The notes below the pieces were generated by a model that ran no database searches, had not been told where the DNA came from, and was given only the letters and a program-made list of their open reading frames with translations. Made by a program: the position numbers and the translations under genes. DNA of 64,000 nucleotides, taken from contig CP036201.1 in NCBI GenBank assembly GCA_004299845.1, forward strand, positions 744,001 through 808,000. The letters run 5' to 3'. The stretch comes from Verrucomicrobia bacterium S94 (GTDB taxonomy: Bacteria; Verrucomicrobiota; Kiritimatiellia; Kiritimatiellales; Pontiellaceae). Positions 1 through 18,995 of this stretch are shown here, piece by piece. Position 1 is the stretch's first letter, and the number at the start of each line of letters is the position of its first letter.

Positions 1-672
1 CTAAGGGCATGGCATGTAGGGGCTGATATACTGGAGGCGGAATATGTTACCCGGATGGGTGATAAAGTGGTGCTGAAGGATGCGCGGGGAAAACAGCGGA
101 AAGTGCTTTGGAAAAAACTTTCAGCCGAGGATCTTGAATATATTGAACTTTGCAATCCTCCGGATTTGCAGGTTTCGGTCACCAGTAAGGAGGAACCGGT
201 ATTTGCGTATAGTGACGGGGTTAAAGTGGAAGTGGTCGGACATGATGCCGTTTATACCGGAAAAATCCGGCAGAAGAGTCCGAAGGCCTATCCACATGAG
301 CTCACGGCGGAATTTTTCGCCATCGGTGTGCAGAACTATGCGGACACCTATCTGCTGCTGGATCGGCAGGAATCCACTTTTGTGCTGAATGAAGAGAATA
401 AACGGGAGTTTGATTTTTCCGGAGATCCGGTTCATCTGCGCAAGATTGAGCCGCGTGAGTGGGAAACGGCGGACTTGACGGTTCGTGGCGAAAAGCATTA
501 CGGCTACCTCATCGTGGTAAAGGATAAGCGGGGGGAAATTATTGCGAAGAAAGCGACGGCTCAGTGGATTGAAGATGCCTATGAAAAACTCAAGGTATTT
601 CCGATCGGGCGCTATATGAATAAGCAGGGGGATCGCGTATTTCCGCAGGGTCCGCCGCGAGCGCGTTATTGA
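1..672 (+). CDS. SHD1-domain protein, C-terminal part (5' end outside window)
   Basis: The frame is open from the first base, so this is the C-terminal ~223 residues of a longer protein. It opens with a stretch of SLA1-homology-domain-1 type (RAWHVGADILEAEYV, then a VLKD-RGK strand and a KKLSAEDLEYIE helix), a fold common in secreted proteins of the PVC group. The rest aligns by eye with the C-terminus of the protein at 13337-15208: both carry an A(D/N)FF/MF-type strand, a YxLLDRQE(S/T) motif, a RGEKxYGYLxVVxD(K/D)RG block and an ending of the form NKQxxRVFPxxPPxxxY. The first internal ATG is at 55, but homology runs upstream of it, so I do not take it as the start. No enzyme motif is visible and the function is unknown. 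Its N-terminus may be TonB-like, as in the paralogue, but that lies outside the window. Confidence 0.75.
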   Translation, partial: LRAWHVGADILEAEYVTRMGDKVVLKDARGKQRKVLWKKLSAEDLEYIELCNPPDLQVSVTSKEEPVFAYSDGVKVEVVGHDAVYTGKIRQKSPKAYPHELTAEFFAIGVQNYADTYLLLDRQESTFVLNEENKREFDFSGDPVHLRKIEPREWETADLTVRGEKHYGYLIVVKDKRGEIIAKKATAQWIEDAYEKLKVFPIGRYMNKQGDRVFPQGPPRARY

Positions 673-10407: not shown

Positions 10408-10526
10408 CTCCGGTTGGTAACGAATTTTTTGATTATCTGGTCGATGTGGCCTCAGGACGTAAAACGCGGTCGGAAGAAAACGGGTATCGTGATTTTGCCA
10501 TTTGGAAACAGGGGGTGACGTTGTGA
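10404..10526 (+). CDS. uxaA: Altronate dehydratase C-terminal fragment (frameshift remainder)
   Basis: Forty residues that match the end of UxaA family proteins (FFDYLVDVASGRKTRSEENG, then YRDFAIWKQGVTL). It starts with an ATG overlapping the stop of the preceding part (ATGA). A stand-alone 40-residue tail has no known function, so I read it as the separated C-terminus of uxaA. Its TGA overlaps the ATG of the GH2 gene (TGATG), which shows the operon is tightly packed and translationally coupled. Confidence 0.75.
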   Translation: MTPVGNEFFDYLVDVASGRKTRSEENGYRDFAIWKQGVTL

Positions 10527-13306
10527 TGAGAGGGATACTGGTTGCATTGAGTTCATGGATCGCATTCAGTGCTGCAGCACAGCACGCTGAGCGGGTTTAT
10601 CTGAGCGGTAAAGGGCCGTCGGATGCGGTCGAGTGGGATTTCTTCTGTTCCAAGGGTCGGAAGAGCGGGGAGTGGACGAAGATTCCGGTGCCGTCGAACT
10701 GGGAGCAGCAGGGGTTCGGCGCATACAATTATGGCCATGAACCGGCCGCGGAAAAAGCGGACGAAACGGGCCGCTATAAGACCACTTTTTTTGCTCCGAA
10801 GGAGTGGAAAGATAAACATGTGCGTCTGGTGTTTGAAGGGTCCATGACGCAGACCGAGGTGACGATTAACGGTAAGCAGGCCGGGTTCCCGAATTATGGC
10901 GGCTATCTTCCGTTCCGCTATATTCTGGATAAAACCAAGCTTAAATACGGCGAGGAAAATGTTCTTGAAGTGCTGGTAAAGAAGAAACCGGACAACGACA
11001 GCCTGGATCAGGCGGAGCGTAAGGCGGATTTCTGGGTATTCGGCGGGATCTACCGTCCGGTTTATCTGGAAGTGCTTCCGCGTGAATTTGTGAACCGGGT
11101 AGCGATTGATGCGCGGATGGACGGATCGTTCAGAATGGATGTATTTCCGCAGGTGCAGCAGCCTACCAAATTCCGTGAGGAGTTTAAGGAATACGTGGAT
11201 GAACTCACTGCGCAGATCCAGACGCTGGACGGGGAGAATGTCGGAAAGCCGATGATCGCCCCCATTTATGGTTCGGCCGGACGCATACGCCTTGAAAACC
11301 ACATTAAAAAACCGTCGCTGTGGTCGCCGGAACATCCGAATCTGTATCAGGTAAAACTGACGATGAAACACAAGGGGAAGGTGCTGTCGACAACGGTTGA
11401 ACGTTTCGGTTTCCGGACGTTTGAACATCGGCTGGGCGATGGACTTTATCTGAATGGCAAACGTATTCTGATCAAAGGGGTGAACCGCAATGTGTTTGAT
11501 CCGCAGCATGGGCGGGCGATTGATGCGGAGCGGGTCTGGCGCGAAGCGTGTGAGATCAAGGCGATGAATGCCAACCTGGTACGTTCCCATATGCCGCCGA
11601 CGATGGAGTTTATGAGGGCGTGTGATGAGCTGGGTCTGATGGTGATTACGGAGCTGTGCAACTGGCATGATCCGGTGATTGATACGCCGATTGCACGTAA
11701 TCTGGTGTATGAGCTGGTTACAACCTATCAGAATCATCCGTCGGTGATTATCTGGGCGAACGGCAATGAAAACGGGTTTAATCTGGAAGTGGATGAACTG
11801 TATCATCTTTACGATCTGCAGAATCGTCCGATCATTCATCCATGGGCTTATTTTGAGGGGATGAATACCAAGCATTATCCGGACTGGAAGGAATTCCAGC
11901 TGCGCCTGAGTCATGATAAGGTTTATCTGCCGACCGAGTTTCTGCATGGTCTTTATGATGGAGGTCACGGGGCCGGACTGCAGGATTACTGGGATGCAAT
12001 TAAAGCTTCGCCGATCGCGGCCGGCGGGGTGCTCTGGTGCTGGGCCGATGCGGCGATTGCCCGTACAGACCGGGAGGGAATGCTGGATACCGACGGCAAT
12101 CATTCGGCGGATGGTATTGTCGGTCCGAACGGAGAGAAGGAGGCCAGCTATTATTCCATTCGTGAAATCTGGTCACCGATACAAATTGCCATGAAAAGTT
12201 TGCCGGATAATTTCAGCGGAAAAATCCCGCTGGAAAACCGGTTTTATGAAACCCGCCTGGATGCCTGTTCGTTTGAGTGGAAACTTGTGAATCATACCGG
12301 ACCGTTTGAAGAAACACAGAGCAGTGTGCAGGCCGAAGGACGGGTGACAGGACCGAAAATAAAACCTGGAAAAACGGGGATGCTGAAACTGCGGCTTCCG
12401 GAGAATTGGAAAAAGGCTACGGCACTAGAACTGCGAGCATTCAGTTCCGGCGGACGGGAAATTATGCAGTGGGCCTGGCCGATCCGTTCCCCGGAAATTA
12501 AAGGTGCCGAAGCTGTCGTGCGGCAGGCTGATGACAATCCGTTCGAGATTACAGCCGGTACAACTACCTGGAAATTTTCTCCCGAAACCGGACAGTTGCT
12601 GAACTGCAGTGCCGAAGGATTCGGCCGGGGCCCCGTACTTTATGCGGGCACGCTGGATGGCGCTTTGGAATTTTCCTGTGTCTGGAAAACCTCGGTTGCG
12701 AAAAAGAACAATACCGTTGTCATTCGTTCGGTCAGCGAAGATGCGTCATTCAGCTGGACGGTTCTTCCGGATGGTTCGGCGGTGCTGGATTATGATTTTT
12801 CGGCTCCGACTAACGAACTGGTGTATGCCGCAATCGGGTTTGATCTGGAAGAAGCCGCGGTGGCTTCGAAGCGGTGGCTGGGGCAGGGCCCGGACCGTAT
12901 CTGGGGCAACCGGCTGCGCGGTCCGCAGTTCGGGCTGTGGGAAAATGAATATAACGATCATGTTGTCGGTGTGAACTGGGGCGAAACGCCCTTTAAAGGC
13001 ATTTTCGGAAATGTCGACTGGATGCAGCTGAATCTGAAATCCGGAAAGACGCTGGTAGCCGATACGGATTATGCGGCGGTCGGTGTGCTGCGTCCGGCCA
13101 ATGCGGAGGGCGAGCGGAATAAACACGGGCCGACCAGTCCGGTGCATGCATGGTGGCATTACCCGGAATCCGGCGGTTTGTATCTGTTCCATAAACTTCC
13201 CGGGACGGGAACCAAATTCGCCAACGCGTGGGAGCTGGGACCGCAAGGAAATGTGACTGTACTCAAAAGAACAATTGCCGGCCGGATACAATTGATGGTT
13301 AAATAA
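10526..13306 (+). CDS. GH2 family beta-galactosidase-like glycoside hydrolase, secreted
   Basis: Predicted 926-residue exo-hydrolase of family GH2, probably removing beta-linked galactose. It has a signal peptide (about residues 1-19, ending SAAAQ). The order of domains is a jelly-roll sugar-binding domain (VPSNWEQQGFGAYNYG, VRLVFEGSMTQTEVTING), an immunoglobulin-like domain ending in VERFGFRTFE, and a TIM barrel starting LYLNGKRILIKGVNRN. The acid/base Glu is in IIWANGNENG and the likely nucleophile in YLPTEFLHGLYDGGH. A C-terminal beta-sandwich follows (LGQGPDRIWGNRLRG, WWHYPESGG). The start at 10526 overlaps the preceding stop (TGATG); upstream non-ATG starts in this frame lack a signal peptide. 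It sits in an operon with uxaB-uxaA. GH2 also contains glucuronidases and mannosidases, so galactosidase is the likeliest but not the only activity. Confidence 0.87.
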   Translation: MRGILVALSSWIAFSAAAQHAERVYLSGKGPSDAVEWDFFCSKGRKSGEWTKIPVPSNWEQQGFGAYNYGHEPAAEKADETGRYKTTFFAPKEWKDKHVRLVFEGSMTQTEVTINGKQAGFPNYGGYLPFRYILDKTKLKYGEENVLEVLVKKKPDNDSLDQAERKADFWVFGGIYRPVYLEVLPREFVNRVAIDARMDGSFRMDVFPQVQQPTKFREEFKEYVDELTAQIQTLDGENVGKPMIAPIYGSAGRIRLENHIKKPSLWSPEHPNLYQVKLTMKHKGKVLSTTVERFGFRTFEHRLGDGLYLNGKRILIKGVNRNVFDPQHGRAIDAERVWREACEIKAMNANLVRSHMPPTMEFMRACDELGLMVITELCNWHDPVIDTPIARNLVYELVTTYQNHPSVIIWANGNENGFNLEVDELYHLYDLQNRPIIHPWAYFEGMNTKHYPDWKEFQLRLSHDKVYLPTEFLHGLYDGGHGAGLQDYWDAIKASPIAAGGVLWCWADAAIARTDREGMLDTDGNHSADGIVGPNGEKEASYYSIREIWSPIQIAMKSLPDNFSGKIPLENRFYETRLDACSFEWKLVNHTGPFEETQSSVQAEGRVTGPKIKPGKTGMLKLRLPENWKKATALELRAFSSGGREIMQWAWPIRSPEIKGAEAVVRQADDNPFEITAGTTTWKFSPETGQLLNCSAEGFGRGPVLYAGTLDGALEFSCVWKTSVAKKNNTVVIRSVSEDASFSWTVLPDGSAVLDYDFSAPTNELVYAAIGFDLEEAAVASKRWLGQGPDRIWGNRLRGPQFGLWENEYNDHVVGVNWGETPFKGIFGNVDWMQLNLKSGKTLVADTDYAAVGVLRPANAEGERNKHGPTSPVHAWWHYPESGGLYLFHKLPGTGTKFANAWELGPQGNVTVLKRTIAGRIQLMVK

Positions 13307-13336: not shown

Positions 13337-15208
13337 ATGAAAAATGAGAATAATAGAGGGATCTCAAAAGGAGCGCCGAGCGGTTTTCTTATTAGTATAA
13401 TCGTTCATGCTGCGGCATTTATGCTGGCCGGATTGCTGGTGGTCTTTTCGGTCACTCAGAAAGAAGAGAAAAAATTCGTGCCGCCCAAACCGGTTGACCG
13501 TCCGAAGATGAAACTGAAAAAGCCGAAGGTGAAGGTGAAAAAATCATCGAAACCGAAGGCGACCAACCGGATTGTTACCAAGGTGCAGAAAGCCAGTATG
13601 CCCGATATACAGCTTCCGGAACTGTCCGGAATCGGAGAGAACCTGAGCGGGGATATCGGCGGTTTTGAGATTATGCCGGATTTGGAATCGCTATCGGTAC
13701 TGGGAAGTTCGCAGTCAATCGGCAGCGACCTGGAAGGCACGTATTATGACCTGAAGCTGGATCGGCAGGGTCGGTTTATTTCCAACGATAAAGAGACTTT
13801 CCGGGCCAACATGATTGATTTTGTCCGGAAGGGCTGGAAGCCTTCGGTGCTGTCGAAATTTTATCGTGCGCCGAAAAAGATTTATGCGACTTCTCTGATT
13901 GTTCCGACAACGCAGTCGTCCATTGCGCCGGCCGCTTTCGGCGACCGCGATGCCAGTGGGGCCCAGTGGATGGTGCATTATAAAGGCCAGCTGGTCCATG
14001 CGGAAGGCATTACGTTCCGCTTCTGGGCGGCGGCCGATGAAACACTGCTGGTCCGGGTGGATGGAAAAATTGTGGTGGGTGCAAAATGGGCGAATACAGA
14101 TACCGGGTGGTCCAATGTTGAACCGGATACCGTGACACCGTTCTGGCAGAGTTCATCCATGGATTCCTACCGGTTTATTCTGGGGAACAGCCGGGCTGCT
14201 GTGGGGGACTGGATTACGCTGGAACCGGGCGTTCCGCTTGATCTGGAAATCATCATCGGTGATAACGGAGGTAAGGCCAGTTTCTTCCTCGCCGTAGAAG
14301 AAAAAGGGGTGGAGTACCCGAAAAGCAAGCAGGGTGGTCCGATTCTTCCGGTGTTTAAAACGGCTCCGATTTCCCGTGATATGATGGATATCATTTATAA
14401 GGATCTGGTTGAAGGCGAGGTGAGCCTGACCGACGGACCTGTATTCAATGACTATGCCGGCGGTTCTGCTGAAATGAGTCCGGAACCGGCTCAGGCCGCG
14501 AATCCGGTGCCGGTTGAGCCGAATCTTCCGGAGTCGGATGTCGCCACCTGGGAGCTGCAGGATGGTACCGCTTTCGAGGCCGAGCTGGTGAATGTGATGG
14601 CCGGTACGGCTGTTTTTAAGAATGCACGGAATAAGGCGGTGAAGGTGCCGCTTGAAAAGCTGACCGAGCTCAGTCTGCGGAATGTGGAGCTTTCTCTCCC
14701 GCCGGAATTCGACATTAATTTTGTGCGGGACAGTAATCAGAAGACGTTTGCGATGGACAGTTATGATGCGGATAATATACGGCCGCCCGAACAGCGCTGT
14801 TATTATGGGTTCCGGCTGAAACAGGTCGGCACCGGAGATTATCCTTATCGTGTAAACGCCGAGATGTTTGTGATTGGTCAGGAAAGGCTGGGTACAAAAT
14901 ATATTCTGCTGGACCGGCAGGAGACGTCGTTTATTCCTACCCGGGAAAATAAGAAATCGTACAGTTTTAAGAGCGGACGCGAAGTGGTACTTCAGAATTA
15001 TGAAGTGGAAGGAGAACCGCGTGGCGAAAAATATGCCGGTTATCTGGTGGTTCTGACGGATGAGCGGGGCCGGGAAATCGGTTACAGCACTTCGGATGAG
15101 TGGCTGTATGAAAATCTGGATAATCTGAAACGGCAGAAACCGGGAAATTATATCAATAAGCAGTGTGAACGTGTTTTCCCGACGCGGCCTCCGGCTACAC
15201 TTTATTAA
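13337..15208 (+). CDS. TonB-like N-terminus fused to PA14-like and SHD1 domains
   Basis: A 623-residue protein of unusual layout. Residues 16-40 form one membrane segment in a TonB-like context (SGFLISIIVHAAAFMLAG), followed by a Pro/Lys-rich spacer (about 46-80). Residues ~185-325 look like a PA14-type beta sandwich (WMVHYKGQLVHAEGITFRFW, DETLLVRVDGKIVV). Residues ~403-455 resemble SHD1 (WELQDGTAFEAELVNVMAG, VKVPLEKLTEL). The last ~170 residues match the protein at 1-672. There is no TonB C-terminal domain, so it is not an ordinary TonB. I infer an inner-membrane-anchored periplasmic protein that may bind glycan or span the envelope. It begins 31 bases after the GH2 gene with GGAGGGG upstream, so it belongs to the same operon. 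Function unknown. Confidence 0.75.
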   Translation: MKNENNRGISKGAPSGFLISIIVHAAAFMLAGLLVVFSVTQKEEKKFVPPKPVDRPKMKLKKPKVKVKKSSKPKATNRIVTKVQKASMPDIQLPELSGIGENLSGDIGGFEIMPDLESLSVLGSSQSIGSDLEGTYYDLKLDRQGRFISNDKETFRANMIDFVRKGWKPSVLSKFYRAPKKIYATSLIVPTTQSSIAPAAFGDRDASGAQWMVHYKGQLVHAEGITFRFWAAADETLLVRVDGKIVVGAKWANTDTGWSNVEPDTVTPFWQSSSMDSYRFILGNSRAAVGDWITLEPGVPLDLEIIIGDNGGKASFFLAVEEKGVEYPKSKQGGPILPVFKTAPISRDMMDIIYKDLVEGEVSLTDGPVFNDYAGGSAEMSPEPAQAANPVPVEPNLPESDVATWELQDGTAFEAELVNVMAGTAVFKNARNKAVKVPLEKLTELSLRNVELSLPPEFDINFVRDSNQKTFAMDSYDADNIRPPEQRCYYGFRLKQVGTGDYPYRVNAEMFVIGQERLGTKYILLDRQETSFIPTRENKKSYSFKSGREVVLQNYEVEGEPRGEKYAGYLVVLTDERGREIGYSTSDEWLYENLDNLKRQKPGNYINKQCERVFPTRPPATLY

Positions 15209-15220
15209 TGTCCTGCAAGG

Positions 15221-15616
15221 ATGTTGTGTGATGCCGGGCTGGATCTGAATGCTTTGAATGCCGAACAGCAGGAGGCTTATGCTCGGCTGGGCAGGGTCCT
15301 TGATCAGCATAAGTATGTTCCGGTGGAGCGGTTGCAGATTATTAAATGTGAGGTGCCGGTGAGACCGGGGCGGAAAAGCCGGCTTTCCTGTAAAGTCTAC
15401 CCGTCCAATGCAATGCGCAACGGGGTGATTTGGGAAAGTACTGACCCGGAGATTGCCGCGGTGGATAAGTTCGGGGTGCTGCATGCGCATCAGCCCGGTA
15501 AGGTTAAGGTGAATGCCTATTCCTGGGATGATGCAAAACCTTCGGCTAAAAATGAAGGTGAGACCTATCTCCGGGACGGGATCCAAAGTTCCGTAACCGT
15601 AGCGATCGAAGAATGA
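15221..15616 (+). CDS. Orphan Big_2 (bacterial Ig-like) domain protein or remnant
   Basis: Encodes 131 residues. After a short helical segment (LNALNAEQQEAYARLGRVL) it shows a Big_2-like Ig domain: RPGRKSRLSCKVYPSNA, then VIWESTDPEIAAVDKFGVL, AHQPGKVKVNAYS and a final VTVAIEE strand. Such domains normally sit at the ends of secreted enzymes or adhesins, yet here there is no signal peptide. The AAGG upstream touches the ATG, too close for normal initiation. No stop-free extension exists in this frame before 15209. It may be a small lone protein or the 3' remnant of a lost secreted enzyme. It follows the TonB-like/SHD1 gene by 12 bases. Confidence 0.5.
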   Translation: MLCDAGLDLNALNAEQQEAYARLGRVLDQHKYVPVERLQIIKCEVPVRPGRKSRLSCKVYPSNAMRNGVIWESTDPEIAAVDKFGVLHAHQPGKVKVNAYSWDDAKPSAKNEGETYLRDGIQSSVTVAIEE

Positions 15617-15759: not shown

Positions 15760-17337
15760 ATGAAGAAGTTAATGTTATTTATTGCAGTTTCGTTGGTTGC
15801 GGGAGTCGGGGCGGTTTTTGCGGCTCCGGAGCGACCGAATATTGTGGTTATTCTCGCGGATGATGTGGGGTCCGGGGATATCAGCTATTACCGCAAACAT
15901 TTCATGGACGGGAAGCCGGTGTTTGAGACCCCGAATATTGATGCGCTGGCGGAAAACGGCATGTGGTTCACGGATGGACACTCCTCCACATCGCTCTGTG
16001 CTCCGACGCGTTATGCGATCATGAGTGGGAAAAACAACTACCGGTCGGAAGCCCCGTGGGGCGTCTGGAATTCTTTTTATGAAGGGGCCATCAAGAAGGG
16101 CGATACCACGCTGGGAACGGTGGCTCGCGACGGCGGATATGCAACCGGCTTTATCGGTAAATGGCATCTGGGCCTGAACTTTAAAAAACTCAAGGGTGAA
16201 GGGTATTATCGAGGCAACGATAAAGACGACAAAGTGGTGAATGCGGATATGACACAGGTGGCGTATGGCGGTCCGATTGATATGGGATTTGAGTACAGCT
16301 ATGCTCTCCCGACCGGGGTGCAGGGGCCGCTCTATCTGGCCTACGAAAATGAGAAGTGGGCACCGTTTGAAGAAGGAGTATCTGAAATCATCTGTTTCAA
16401 TGAGGAGAATGGATGGGATCCTGAAACAGTGACAGAAGAGGATAAAAAAAGTGTTGGAGTGGAAGGGGTTCTTACGATCTCCGACAAAGGTCCGGGTATG
16501 GGGGATTCCCGCTGGGATACCTCGCGCATTCCCGATATCATTTCGAGCAAAGCGGTGGGCTTCATCAATGAGTATGCCAATAAAAAACCGTTTTTCCTCT
16601 ACTACTGCAGTCCTGAAGCTCACCGTCCGCATATCCCGCCGGCCGAAATGGATGGAGTTAAGATCCGCGGAACGCTGCCGTCGCGCCATATGGAGTGCAT
16701 CAAGGCACTGGACCTTGAAGTCAAGCGGATTGTGGATGCTCTGAAAGCCAATAATGTGCTGGAGGACACGTTGATCTTTTTCATGACGGATAACGGCGGG
16801 CTGACCTGGAAGGTTCCGGGAACGCTGGAATCCGGACACCGGCCGAGCGGAAACTACCGCGGGGCAAAGAGTGCTCCGCATGAAGGCGGCCATCGTGTTC
16901 CGTTTATTGCTCATTGGCCGAAACATATCAAACCCGGCCAGACCTCTGATGAACTGGTGGTTACTCACGATCTGATGGCGACCGTGGCCCAGATTGTCGG
17001 AATCGAACTGACCGATGAGGATACGCTGGATTCAACGAGCATTCTTCCGATTCTTCTGGGGAAGGAGTTTAAACCGCGCGATTTTCTGGCCTGGCAGTCG
17101 GGAGCCACTTTTGAGGTGATGTATCGGGAAGGTCCGTGGAAACTGATTATCCAGAGCAATCACCCGCTTAGCAGGTGGGAGCCGATTGAGCTGTATAATC
17201 TGGAGACCAATCCGAATGAAAATCCGAAGAAAAACCTGATCAACCATCCGGAATACAAAGCACGTGCGGAGAAAATGTTCGAAAAGTATATGAAAATCCG
17301 GAAGAGCGGAGTGCGCACGGCACCGGTTAATTCTTAA
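15760..17337 (+). CDS. S1-family sulfatase, secreted (C-A-P-T-R motif)
   Basis: A 525-residue exported sulfatase. It has a signal peptide (about residues 1-21), the metal-binding opening RPNIVVILADDVGSGD, and the maturation motif C80-A-P-T-R. This keeps the Cys-x-Pro-x-Arg core, but has Thr where most S1 enzymes have Ser. Other signatures are TGFIGKWHLGLN, FLYYCSPEAHRPH, FFMTDNGG and GGHRVPFIAHWP. The ATG has GAAAGGA ahead of it. It opens a run of same-strand genes (15760-26593) with gaps of about 11-45 bases, which reads as one long operon: two sulfatases, a nucleoside-hydrolase-like gene, two more sulfatases, GH16 and a transporter. Confidence 0.92.
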   Translation: MKKLMLFIAVSLVAGVGAVFAAPERPNIVVILADDVGSGDISYYRKHFMDGKPVFETPNIDALAENGMWFTDGHSSTSLCAPTRYAIMSGKNNYRSEAPWGVWNSFYEGAIKKGDTTLGTVARDGGYATGFIGKWHLGLNFKKLKGEGYYRGNDKDDKVVNADMTQVAYGGPIDMGFEYSYALPTGVQGPLYLAYENEKWAPFEEGVSEIICFNEENGWDPETVTEEDKKSVGVEGVLTISDKGPGMGDSRWDTSRIPDIISSKAVGFINEYANKKPFFLYYCSPEAHRPHIPPAEMDGVKIRGTLPSRHMECIKALDLEVKRIVDALKANNVLEDTLIFFMTDNGGLTWKVPGTLESGHRPSGNYRGAKSAPHEGGHRVPFIAHWPKHIKPGQTSDELVVTHDLMATVAQIVGIELTDEDTLDSTSILPILLGKEFKPRDFLAWQSGATFEVMYREGPWKLIIQSNHPLSRWEPIELYNLETNPNENPKKNLINHPEYKARAEKMFEKYMKIRKSGVRTAPVNS

Positions 17338-17348
17338 GGAACAGTGTT

Positions 17349-18995
17349 ATGAAAAAAATATGGATTCTTTTCCTGATTCTCTCGGGCATGGTTCTTTCGG
17401 GAACTGCGGCTAAACGAAAACCGAATGTGGTAATTCTTTATACCGATGACCAGCCGATGGATTCGTTCGGTTTCATCGGGGGCAAGGCACATACCCCGAA
17501 TATTGATAAGCTGGCGAAGGAAGGGGCTTATTTCTCGCGGGCCTATGCCACGAGCAGTGTCTGTTCGCCGAGTCGTTATTCCGCGCTGACGGGGCAGTAT
17601 GCCAGCCGTTGTCCGTCGCCACAGTTCCGTAAGGAAATCAGTGCCGAAGGTGTGACGAAAGTGCTTTGGAATATGGGCATGGAAGAGGGCCAGTGGAACT
17701 TCCCTCGGGTCATGCAGGCCAATGGATATAAAACCGGTATGGTCGGCAAATGGCATGTGGGATCGAGCGGTAAACACGGCCACCGCAAAACGGTTCCGGG
17801 TACTGATCCCAAAGATCCGGCGGTTATTGAAGTGTTGAAATATAATCAGGAATACTACTGCAAGGATATTGCCGAGTTCGGTTTCGATTATGTGGGTGCG
17901 GCGTTTCACGGTAATCCGAATGATGATCCGAACCTGGTAAAAACCGGATGCAATGTACACGTGCCGGAATGGCAGACGATGCATGCGCTGAAGTTTATCG
18001 AGGAGAACAAGGACCGGCCGTTTGTGTTGTATTTTGCCACGACGTTGCTGCACGTTCCGGACTGTACGGCCGATCTGAAGAAGGATCCGCGTCTGACGCC
18101 GCTGGGCTGGATGGATGAACCGATCGCTCCGGGGGTTCTGCCTCCGCGTGAAGATGTGCTGCGTCGGGCCCGTGAAGCCGGAGTTCCGGAAAGTCAGAAC
18201 GGAAAACTGATTGCAGCCACCTGGCTGGATGATGTGGTCGGTGCCGTACAGAACAAGTTGAAAGAACTGGGGCTGGATGACAATACGCTGATCATTTATT
18301 TCAATGACAACAGCACGGATGACCAGGGTAAAGGTTCCTGTTATCAGGGGGGCGCACATGTGCCGATGATGGTAAGACTGCCGGGGGTTGTAAAACCGGG
18401 AGAACGGAAGGAGCTGGTAGCCAATATTGACATTGCTCCGACGATCTTTGATTTCTGCGGCGTTACTCCGCCGGAAGATATGGTTCTTGACGGGGCCAGT
18501 CTGATGCCGCTGTGCCGTGGAGAAAAGGTCGAGGATTGGCGCGATGCGATGTACCTGGAAATCGGGCTGACGCGTGCGGTGGTTACCGACGATAATTTCA
18601 AGTATCTCGCGTTCCGTGTTCCGGAAAGCTACACCAACCGTCCGAAAGAAGTGATTCAGCAGGAGCACCGTGAAGCATTGGCGAAAATCCATAAAATGTT
18701 CCCGTGGACGCAGAAGATGTGGCATGAAGAAGAGAATCCGCGTTATATGCACATGGGGATGGCTCCGGGAGGGCATCATATGGAGCGCTTCCAGCTTTAT
18801 CTGAACAATCCGCCGTTCAAGGATAATTATTTTGATCCGGACCAGCTCTATGATCTGAACCGTGATCCGCGCGAAACAACCAATCTGGCCAACAATCCTG
18901 AATATCAGGCGAAGTTGCAGAAGATGCAGAAAAAACTGAGAAAGCTGCTGCAGGATGTTCCGGGTACCTTTGCGGATCTGAAGCCGGAAGAATAA
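17349..18995 (+). CDS. S1-family sulfatase, secreted
   Basis: A 548-residue sulfatase with signal peptide (MKKIWILFLILSGMVLSGTA), the opening KPNVVILYTDDQPMDSFG, the maturation motif C72-S-P-S-R, and TGMVGKWHVGSSGKHGH. The second metal site reads IIYFNDNSTDDQGKGS instead of the usual DNG, so the Asn remains but the following residues differ. This is typical of some S1 subfamilies. A long C-terminal insertion (about residues 420-500, rich in H, M and E) precedes the DPDQLYDLNRDPRETTNLA ending. It starts 12 bases after the previous sulfatase, with AAGGA before the ATG. Substrate unknown; the difference from its neighbours suggests it removes sulfate at another position. Confidence 0.9.
   Translation: MKKIWILFLILSGMVLSGTAAKRKPNVVILYTDDQPMDSFGFIGGKAHTPNIDKLAKEGAYFSRAYATSSVCSPSRYSALTGQYASRCPSPQFRKEISAEGVTKVLWNMGMEEGQWNFPRVMQANGYKTGMVGKWHVGSSGKHGHRKTVPGTDPKDPAVIEVLKYNQEYYCKDIAEFGFDYVGAAFHGNPNDDPNLVKTGCNVHVPEWQTMHALKFIEENKDRPFVLYFATTLLHVPDCTADLKKDPRLTPLGWMDEPIAPGVLPPREDVLRRAREAGVPESQNGKLIAATWLDDVVGAVQNKLKELGLDDNTLIIYFNDNSTDDQGKGSCYQGGAHVPMMVRLPGVVKPGERKELVANIDIAPTIFDFCGVTPPEDMVLDGASLMPLCRGEKVEDWRDAMYLEIGLTRAVVTDDNFKYLAFRVPESYTNRPKEVIQQEHREALAKIHKMFPWTQKMWHEEENPRYMHMGMAPGGHHMERFQLYLNNPPFKDNYFDPDQLYDLNRDPRETTNLANNPEYQAKLQKMQKKLRKLLQDVPGTFADLKPEE

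Follow-up and report, generated by a model that had tools for sequence, protein, structure and literature searches.

A PA14-headed protein on a TonB-like anchor in a Kiritimatiellales bacterium: a probable motor-driven periplasmic transducer with dispersed copies at glycan loci

Introduction

What role could be played, amid genes for glycan degradation, by a protein that begins like TonB and ends in another way? The question is raised by a protein of 623 residues encoded in the window, that is, the whole stretch of 64,000 nucleotides that was analysed (G000:C1:744001-808000), in the 4.11-Mb single-contig genome of Verrucomicrobia bacterium S94. The source organism is a marine, sulfated-sugar-degrading bacterium, in which many interchangeable copies of the family lie beside polysaccharide-degradation genes. 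A sequence-only reading of the locus had proposed an energised or membrane-spanning binder for glycan handling, as a new component of the envelope. Taken as a whole, that interpretation is partly supported, and the notion of an energised binder appears to be largely right. The domain anatomy, the linkage to motor operons in relatives, the co-occurrence with a motor and the dispersal of the family are established here from sequence and from predicted structures. The PA14-headed family probably consists of periplasmic transducers that are driven by the proton motive force and share a central motor, with many of them at glycan loci.

Domain architecture

At E values up to 1, the protein is not named by any Pfam or NCBIfam profile. 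Its parts are listed in Table 1.

Table 1. Features of the window around the PA14-headed gene, with positions counted from the first letter of the window
Feature	Positions	Strand	Basis
C-terminal end of full-length paralogue G000:C1:742780-744672, start upstream of window	1..672	+	
GH2-type glycoside hydrolase, directly upstream	10502..13306	+	Annotation of the sequence-only reading; neighbour tally shows GH2 domains
PA14-headed, TonB-like-anchored putative force transducer, 623 aa	13337..15208	+	
N-terminal transmembrane helix, residues 15-37, motif S20-x3-H24 (motor-contact type)	13379..13447	+	Invariance in relatives and PMC12215075
Basic Pro/Lys linker, residues 41-112, common to vWA-headed transducers	13457..13672	+	Conservation, profile matches
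PA14 carbohydrate-binding-type fold, residues 123-372	13703..14452	+	AlphaFold2 model, VIA
SHD1 (SLA1 homology domain 1) fold, residues 400-455	14534..14701	+	2hbp match; PF03983 in relatives
C-terminal Ig-like beta-sandwich, residues 456-600, without specific fold match	14702..15136	+	AlphaFold2; weak best matches
Sulfatase, directly downstream	15760..17337	+	PF00884, E 2.9e-41
Second sulfatase downstream	17349..18995	+	PF00884 at G000:C1:761421-762461

The TonB-like N-terminus with its Pro/Lys spacer, as it had been read from the sequence, holds. Ser20 and His24 of the membrane helix are unchanged in all 36 of the aligned relatives, and the linker is the best-conserved part of the family (0.78-0.85 over residues 41-100). 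The Leu/Ser half of the TonB/TolA motif is absent from the protein, which has A31 and V35 instead. A TonB C-terminus is missing, again as proposed: neither the protein nor its relatives have a Pfam or NCBIfam match to TonB_C or to the TolA C-terminal domain, and the five PF03544 places of the genome are all away from the gene. In place of TonB_C, the C-terminus is predicted to fold as SHD1 followed by a sandwich.

AlphaFold2, run on the alignment of relatives, gives confident folds at residues ~123-372 and ~402-620, with pLDDT mostly above 88 across the PA14 part and a mean of 92.6 for residues 399-623. The PA14-like sandwich had been placed at residues 185-325; the fold is borne out, while its limits are not, the domain being larger (~123-372). 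It is structure comparison that identifies it, with a match to the Marinomonas PA14 lectin 6m8m (VIA Z 12.3, rmsd 3.4, 162 residues), the next-best PA14 matches being further Marinomonas PA14 and yeast Epa/Flo structures. The curated cut-off of PF07691 is not reached, and two of the 36 relatives match that profile at E up to 1, the best at 0.062. D234 is kept in 34 of the 36 relatives; the residue after it is D in 18 of them and E235 in the window protein, so to judge from the sequence a calcium-dependent sugar site (D234-E235) is not assured there.

The top Foldseek match is 6qe7, a clostridial protein with an anti-sigma factor domain, and regulator-like genes are found near some copies. The protein could thus be pictured as an anchored glycan sensor, comparable to the anti-sigma factors that carry PA14: its head would signal glycan binding to the inner membrane, and the motor would do no more than modulate this. 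This is very unlikely, given a cytoplasmic N-terminus of only about 15 residues without a signalling domain, an anchor that is a motor-binding helix, and motor genes as the operon neighbours in relatives. A sensor of the anti-sigma type, considered on account of the Foldseek match, was rejected for want of a cytoplasmic domain.

For the SHD1-like domain, fold and family profiles agree with the earlier proposal. Residues 400-455 match 2hbp (VIA Z 8.6, rmsd 1.5, 56 residues) and PF03983 is matched by 19 of the 36 relatives and by the paralogue at window positions 1-672 (E 5.6e-6), while the window protein alone gives no Pfam match. The sandwich that follows (~455-590) has Amuc_1102 as best Foldseek match (E 1.1e-3), with VIA Z up to 7.3; modelling of the whole module gave unspecific Ig-like matches, so no family identity was assigned to it.

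Linkage to an ExbB-ExbD-ExbD motor

Relatives were found with the same profile in Pontiella and other Kiritimatiellales. In eight loci of seven related genomes (twice in G032, as L096 and L097, and in G031, G042, G041, G028, G011 and G020), a PA14-headed family member stands in sixth place in a motor operon that runs in the order TPR protein (~1000 aa), smaller TPR/SHD1-like protein, ExbB, ExbD, ExbD, family member. Genes outside the window were called with a simple home-made codon-score script, by which small genes may be missed; in L096 and L097 the TPR gene was found at the expected distance by a TPR marker search. Over 43 genomes of the order, with the TPR protein of the PA14-type motor and the family profile as markers, motor and family occur together in 31 genomes, neither in 10, the motor alone in none and the family alone in two (Fisher 3e-8, inflated by genome kinship). 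G026 has its family member only as a fragment, at the end of a contig and adjoining the motor.

The ExbB/ExbD genes that the sequence-only reading had in mind as possible neighbours lie elsewhere in the window genome: none is near any family copy, and there are 13 ExbD-like places. One of its motors, at 1,736,979-1,742,824, has no transducer beside it. In the tree of the second ExbD, this motor and all PA14-linked motors of the order form one clade (100/100), within which it is sister to the G028 motor (90/86); the motor at 0.83 Mb groups with vWA-linked motors. As no motor gene is adjacent in the window genome, coupling there rests on the relatives and on this orphan motor.

In motor complexes solved by cryo-EM, the contacts with ExbB/TolQ are made by Ser16 and His20 in TonB and by the corresponding two residues in TolA (PMC12215075). 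By motif and synteny, S20 and H24 would dock on ExbB in the same way. Genomics makes the motor coupling of the protein well supported, and with it the earlier term "energised", since S-x3-H is the ExbB/TolQ-contacting motif and relatives stand directly behind ExbB-ExbD-ExbD.

The same anchor and linker occur in a sister motor operon, where a vWA-headed protein takes the same slot (in G003, G006, G005, G022, G027 and G017). When profile A2 of the PA14 family is used as query, the vWA anchors match across positions ~13-129 (about 1e-22); in the opposite direction the values are 1e-12 to 1e-17. These vWA transducers bear on whether the protein is, without energy coupling, a plain signal-anchored periplasmic glycan-binding protein that resembles TonB by convergence. 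Such a reading would suit a genome in which no ExbB/ExbD gene is near any copy, but it has to contend with an invariant S-x3-H, an extremely conserved linker, the eight motor-operon loci of seven relatives, the co-occurrence of motor and family, and the sharing of this anchor with vWA transducers in motor operons; we consider it highly improbable.

Some further arrangements were seen around motors of this type. In three class-level genomes of another family, a PA14-like protein occupies the same sixth slot without S-x3-H (L142, L147, L149); these proteins have a long cytoplasmic N-terminus and a membrane helix without the motif, and their motor contact may differ. In G027, G005, G022 and G017, a vWA transducer gene comes after the counterpart of the 0.83-Mb motor operon. 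The window genome lacks this gene, and its second ExbD is separated from what follows by only about 150 bp (G000:C1:831516-831664; L075 9516-9664). At G000:C1:3494482-3497605 (L074), a further ExbB-ExbD-ExbD operon has behind it a protein that combines an S-x3-H anchor with an alpha/alpha domain, prenyltransferase/squalene-cyclase-like by eye, a third type of head on a TonB-like anchor. In L148 (5228-9322, G048), three proteins starting with SAM-like domains ('LGLGQYAELFAAHNIT...') come after ExbB-ExbD-ExbD.

Paralogues and dispersal

The window genome holds about nine copies of the PA14-headed family. Six copies are full length, including the one that ends in window positions 1-672. The C-terminal module had been described as shared with a protein at 1-672; the paralogy is real, whereas the separate short protein is not, being the cut C-terminus of the first gene in Table 1. 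Two copies are split (L018, L021) into an anchor-PA14 gene and, after it, a stand-alone SHD1-module gene with its own signal peptide. As SHD1 is thus either part of the fusion or exported from a gene next door, the fused C-terminus is expected to lie outside the cytoplasm, and the fused and split forms suggest that the PA14 and SHD1 modules work together. One paralogue, at G000:C1:41873-43830 (L017 11873-13830), is frameshifted and is either a recent pseudogene or a sequence error; the gene is unbroken in L102, its probable equivalent in G027.

In a tree of the anchor and PA14 part, motor-linked and dispersed copies are intermixed, as is expected if heads swap between the motor operon and other loci; a single ancestral clade of motor-linked copies is not supported. 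In G027, an orthologue of the window gene stands in the same GH2/sulfatase setting, with a GH2-like gene likewise upstream. The window genome further contains two vWA-like-headed anchors away from any motor, at G000:C1:597971-599332 and 2567558-2569042, the latter with a MIDAS-like DASRS motif and an exported SHD1-like protein after it.

Glycan context

Between the gene and the first sulfatase, at window positions 15221-15616, an ORF of 131 residues starts 12 bp past the gene. It contains an Ig-like domain of the Big_2 type (PF02368, E 5.8e-8), has no evident signal peptide and may be a piece of some larger protein.

In the window genome alone, circular shifting gives P 0.095 for the sulfatase count within 10 kb and 0.01 for the median distance. 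Because this proximity is weak, a tally of neighbours with a control set was added. Sulfatases make up 12 of the 80 immediate neighbours of dispersed copies versus at most one of 53 control proteins from motor and other loci (p 0.0098), both sets being picked by the home-made gene caller, and the same 80 neighbours include GH2, GH95, fucosidase and GLAA-type domains. A tie between copy number and sulfatase number (Spearman 0.65) was discarded, as the partial correlation given genome size is 0.22. One copy, G000:C1:542082-543935, and its counterparts L087, L100 and L110 adjoin homoserine dehydrogenase/aspartokinase genes in four genomes, outside glycan loci. The glycan link is real in context and not exclusive, in view of the weak window-genome test, the tracking of genome size by copy number, and this last copy. 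Glycan handling, as earlier proposed, is accordingly plausible with modest genome-wide statistics: the sulfatase neighbours and the PA14 lectin fold speak for it, and the reservations about copy number and about the copy beside homoserine dehydrogenase/aspartokinase genes moderate it.

A partnership with a receptor had been disfavoured, and the evidence agrees: beside the lack of TonB_C, a genome-wide search located five plug domains in the window genome, none less than 500 kb from a family member.

The partner could also be a protein. A motor-driven transducer might grip, with its PA14/SHD1 head, a protein for secretion, sorting or envelope tethering, glycan genes being nearby since the partners are glycan-related. 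SHD1 is a protein-interaction domain in yeast Sla1. For the sister class, the vWA heads have been presented as folds that serve adhesion or protein interaction (PMC12204202). Candidate partners would be surface or outer-membrane proteins, PEP-CTERM proteins (present at 11 of 43 family loci) or the neighbouring large secreted proteins with a common FFKLxV-like C-terminus (at 15 of 43). Neither association is significant against ten control loci (Fisher 0.14 and 0.42, respectively), for which reason both were dropped as partners, and the nearest solved folds are carbohydrate-binding PA14 domains; a protein partner of this kind seems rather unlikely. The PEP-CTERM proteins are small, with a PEPAT...RRR end, and lie less than 10 kb from a quarter of the family loci (L017, L018, L101, L102, L107, L117, L118, L120).

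Proposed mode of action

It is fairly probable that the protein is a motor-driven periplasmic transducer akin to TonB/TolA, that its head, which is not that of TonB, is one of several sharing a central motor, and that it has a glycan or surface partner. The single membrane helix would dock through Ser20/His24 on an ExbB-ExbD1-ExbD2 proton motor, by analogy with TonB/TolA on the ExbB of the 1.737-Mb motor. The conserved basic linker would span part of the periplasm, and probably holds the segment engaging the periplasmic domains of ExbD. It would carry a head made up of a PA14 lectin-type domain, SHD1 and an Ig-like sandwich. In the Kiritimatiellales lineage, heads appear to have multiplied by duplication and to have left the motor operon, many for glycan-degradation loci. 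With the heads dispersed in this way, one central motor would energise several head proteins, each presumably made when its own locus is in use. The flow of protons would place the linker, together with the PA14-SHD1 head, under tension. On the periplasmic side of the outer membrane, each head would most likely bind a polysaccharide, an oligosaccharide or a glycosylated or surface partner, and the tension would pull, release or remodel what is bound. By analogy of fold and by context, a glycan is the most likely ligand; both this ligand and the pulling action are what we infer for the head.

If this is true, motor-driven force transduction extends beyond TonB/TolA and the vWA class to direct, possibly glycan-binding heads, and these heads are exchangeable modules shared by one motor. 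They would be candidates for the handling of sulfated polysaccharides by Pontiella and its relatives, with up to hundreds of sulfatases, the window genome having few TonB receptors. Growth has been described on sugars that lack an identified transporter of their own (PMC7356697). More tentatively, it may be speculated that in Kiritimatiellales a receptor-centred (SusC/TonB-receptor) glycan uptake has been replaced by a hub-and-spoke arrangement. A single proton-driven ExbB-ExbD-ExbD motor would then serve a large number of transducers, each belonging to its own locus, and their PA14/SHD1 heads would take direct hold of sulfated polysaccharides and bring them into the periplasm or across it.

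Comparison with known systems

Like TonB and TolA, the 623-residue protein has one N-terminal S-x3-H membrane helix, a Pro/Lys-rich disordered linker, a globular periplasmic end and an ExbB/ExbD-type motor. It differs from them in that the TonB_C/TolA C-terminal domain is lacking, the linker is strongly conserved and no TonB-dependent receptor is nearby, and its motor comprises two distinct ExbD proteins along with TPR partners. The protein would thus work like TonB/TolA, yet it falls outside the TonB family, since it lacks the C-terminal domain by which that family is defined. Several heads on one motor recall Bacteroides, in which multiple TonB homologues are reportedly used for carbohydrate utilisation.

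With PA14 lectin domains (Marinomonas adhesin PA14, Flo5, Epa1), the likeness is one of fold over ~160 residues (Z 10-12). Rather than a surface adhesin, the protein is inner-membrane anchored and motor-linked; its sequence stays under the Pfam threshold, and Glu replaces the second Asp of the conserved Asp-Asp pair. The SHD1 part resembles PF03983 domains in fold (rmsd 1.2-1.5 over 51-56 residues to 2hbp), with Pfam matches in half of the relatives, and departs from known SHD1 in being extracytoplasmic, bacterial and fused to an Ig-like sandwich.

The closest system is that of the vWA motor-driven force transducers, published in 2025 (Mol Biol Evol) from Tichowtungia aerotolerans and others (PMC12204202), in which PA14 is not mentioned. 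Both have the Ser-His N-terminal helix, a conserved linker (~115 residues), the same lineage and the operon TPR, TolQ/ExbB-like, two TolR/ExbD-like, transducer. The SHLS-type helix and disordered linker that define the vWA class find their homologue in the helix and linker of the PA14 family, and the position downstream of TPR, tolQ-like and paired tolR-like genes is found in relatives, not for the dispersed copy of the window. The PA14-headed family differs in its head (PA14, SHD1 and Ig-like sandwich, no vWA domain), in the many copies away from the motor, often in glycan loci, and in its own motor clade. A literature search, with most subscription papers and preprints outside its coverage, gave no paper joining PA14 heads with ExbB/ExbD in the relevant sense and none naming both Kiritimatiell- and ExbD. 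The earlier claim of a new envelope component has therefore to be narrowed: a vWA-headed sister class was already published, and it is the PA14 head with its dispersal into glycan loci that is new with respect to the literature searched. The family is best filed as a PA14-headed, dispersed variant of the published vWA force-transducer class.
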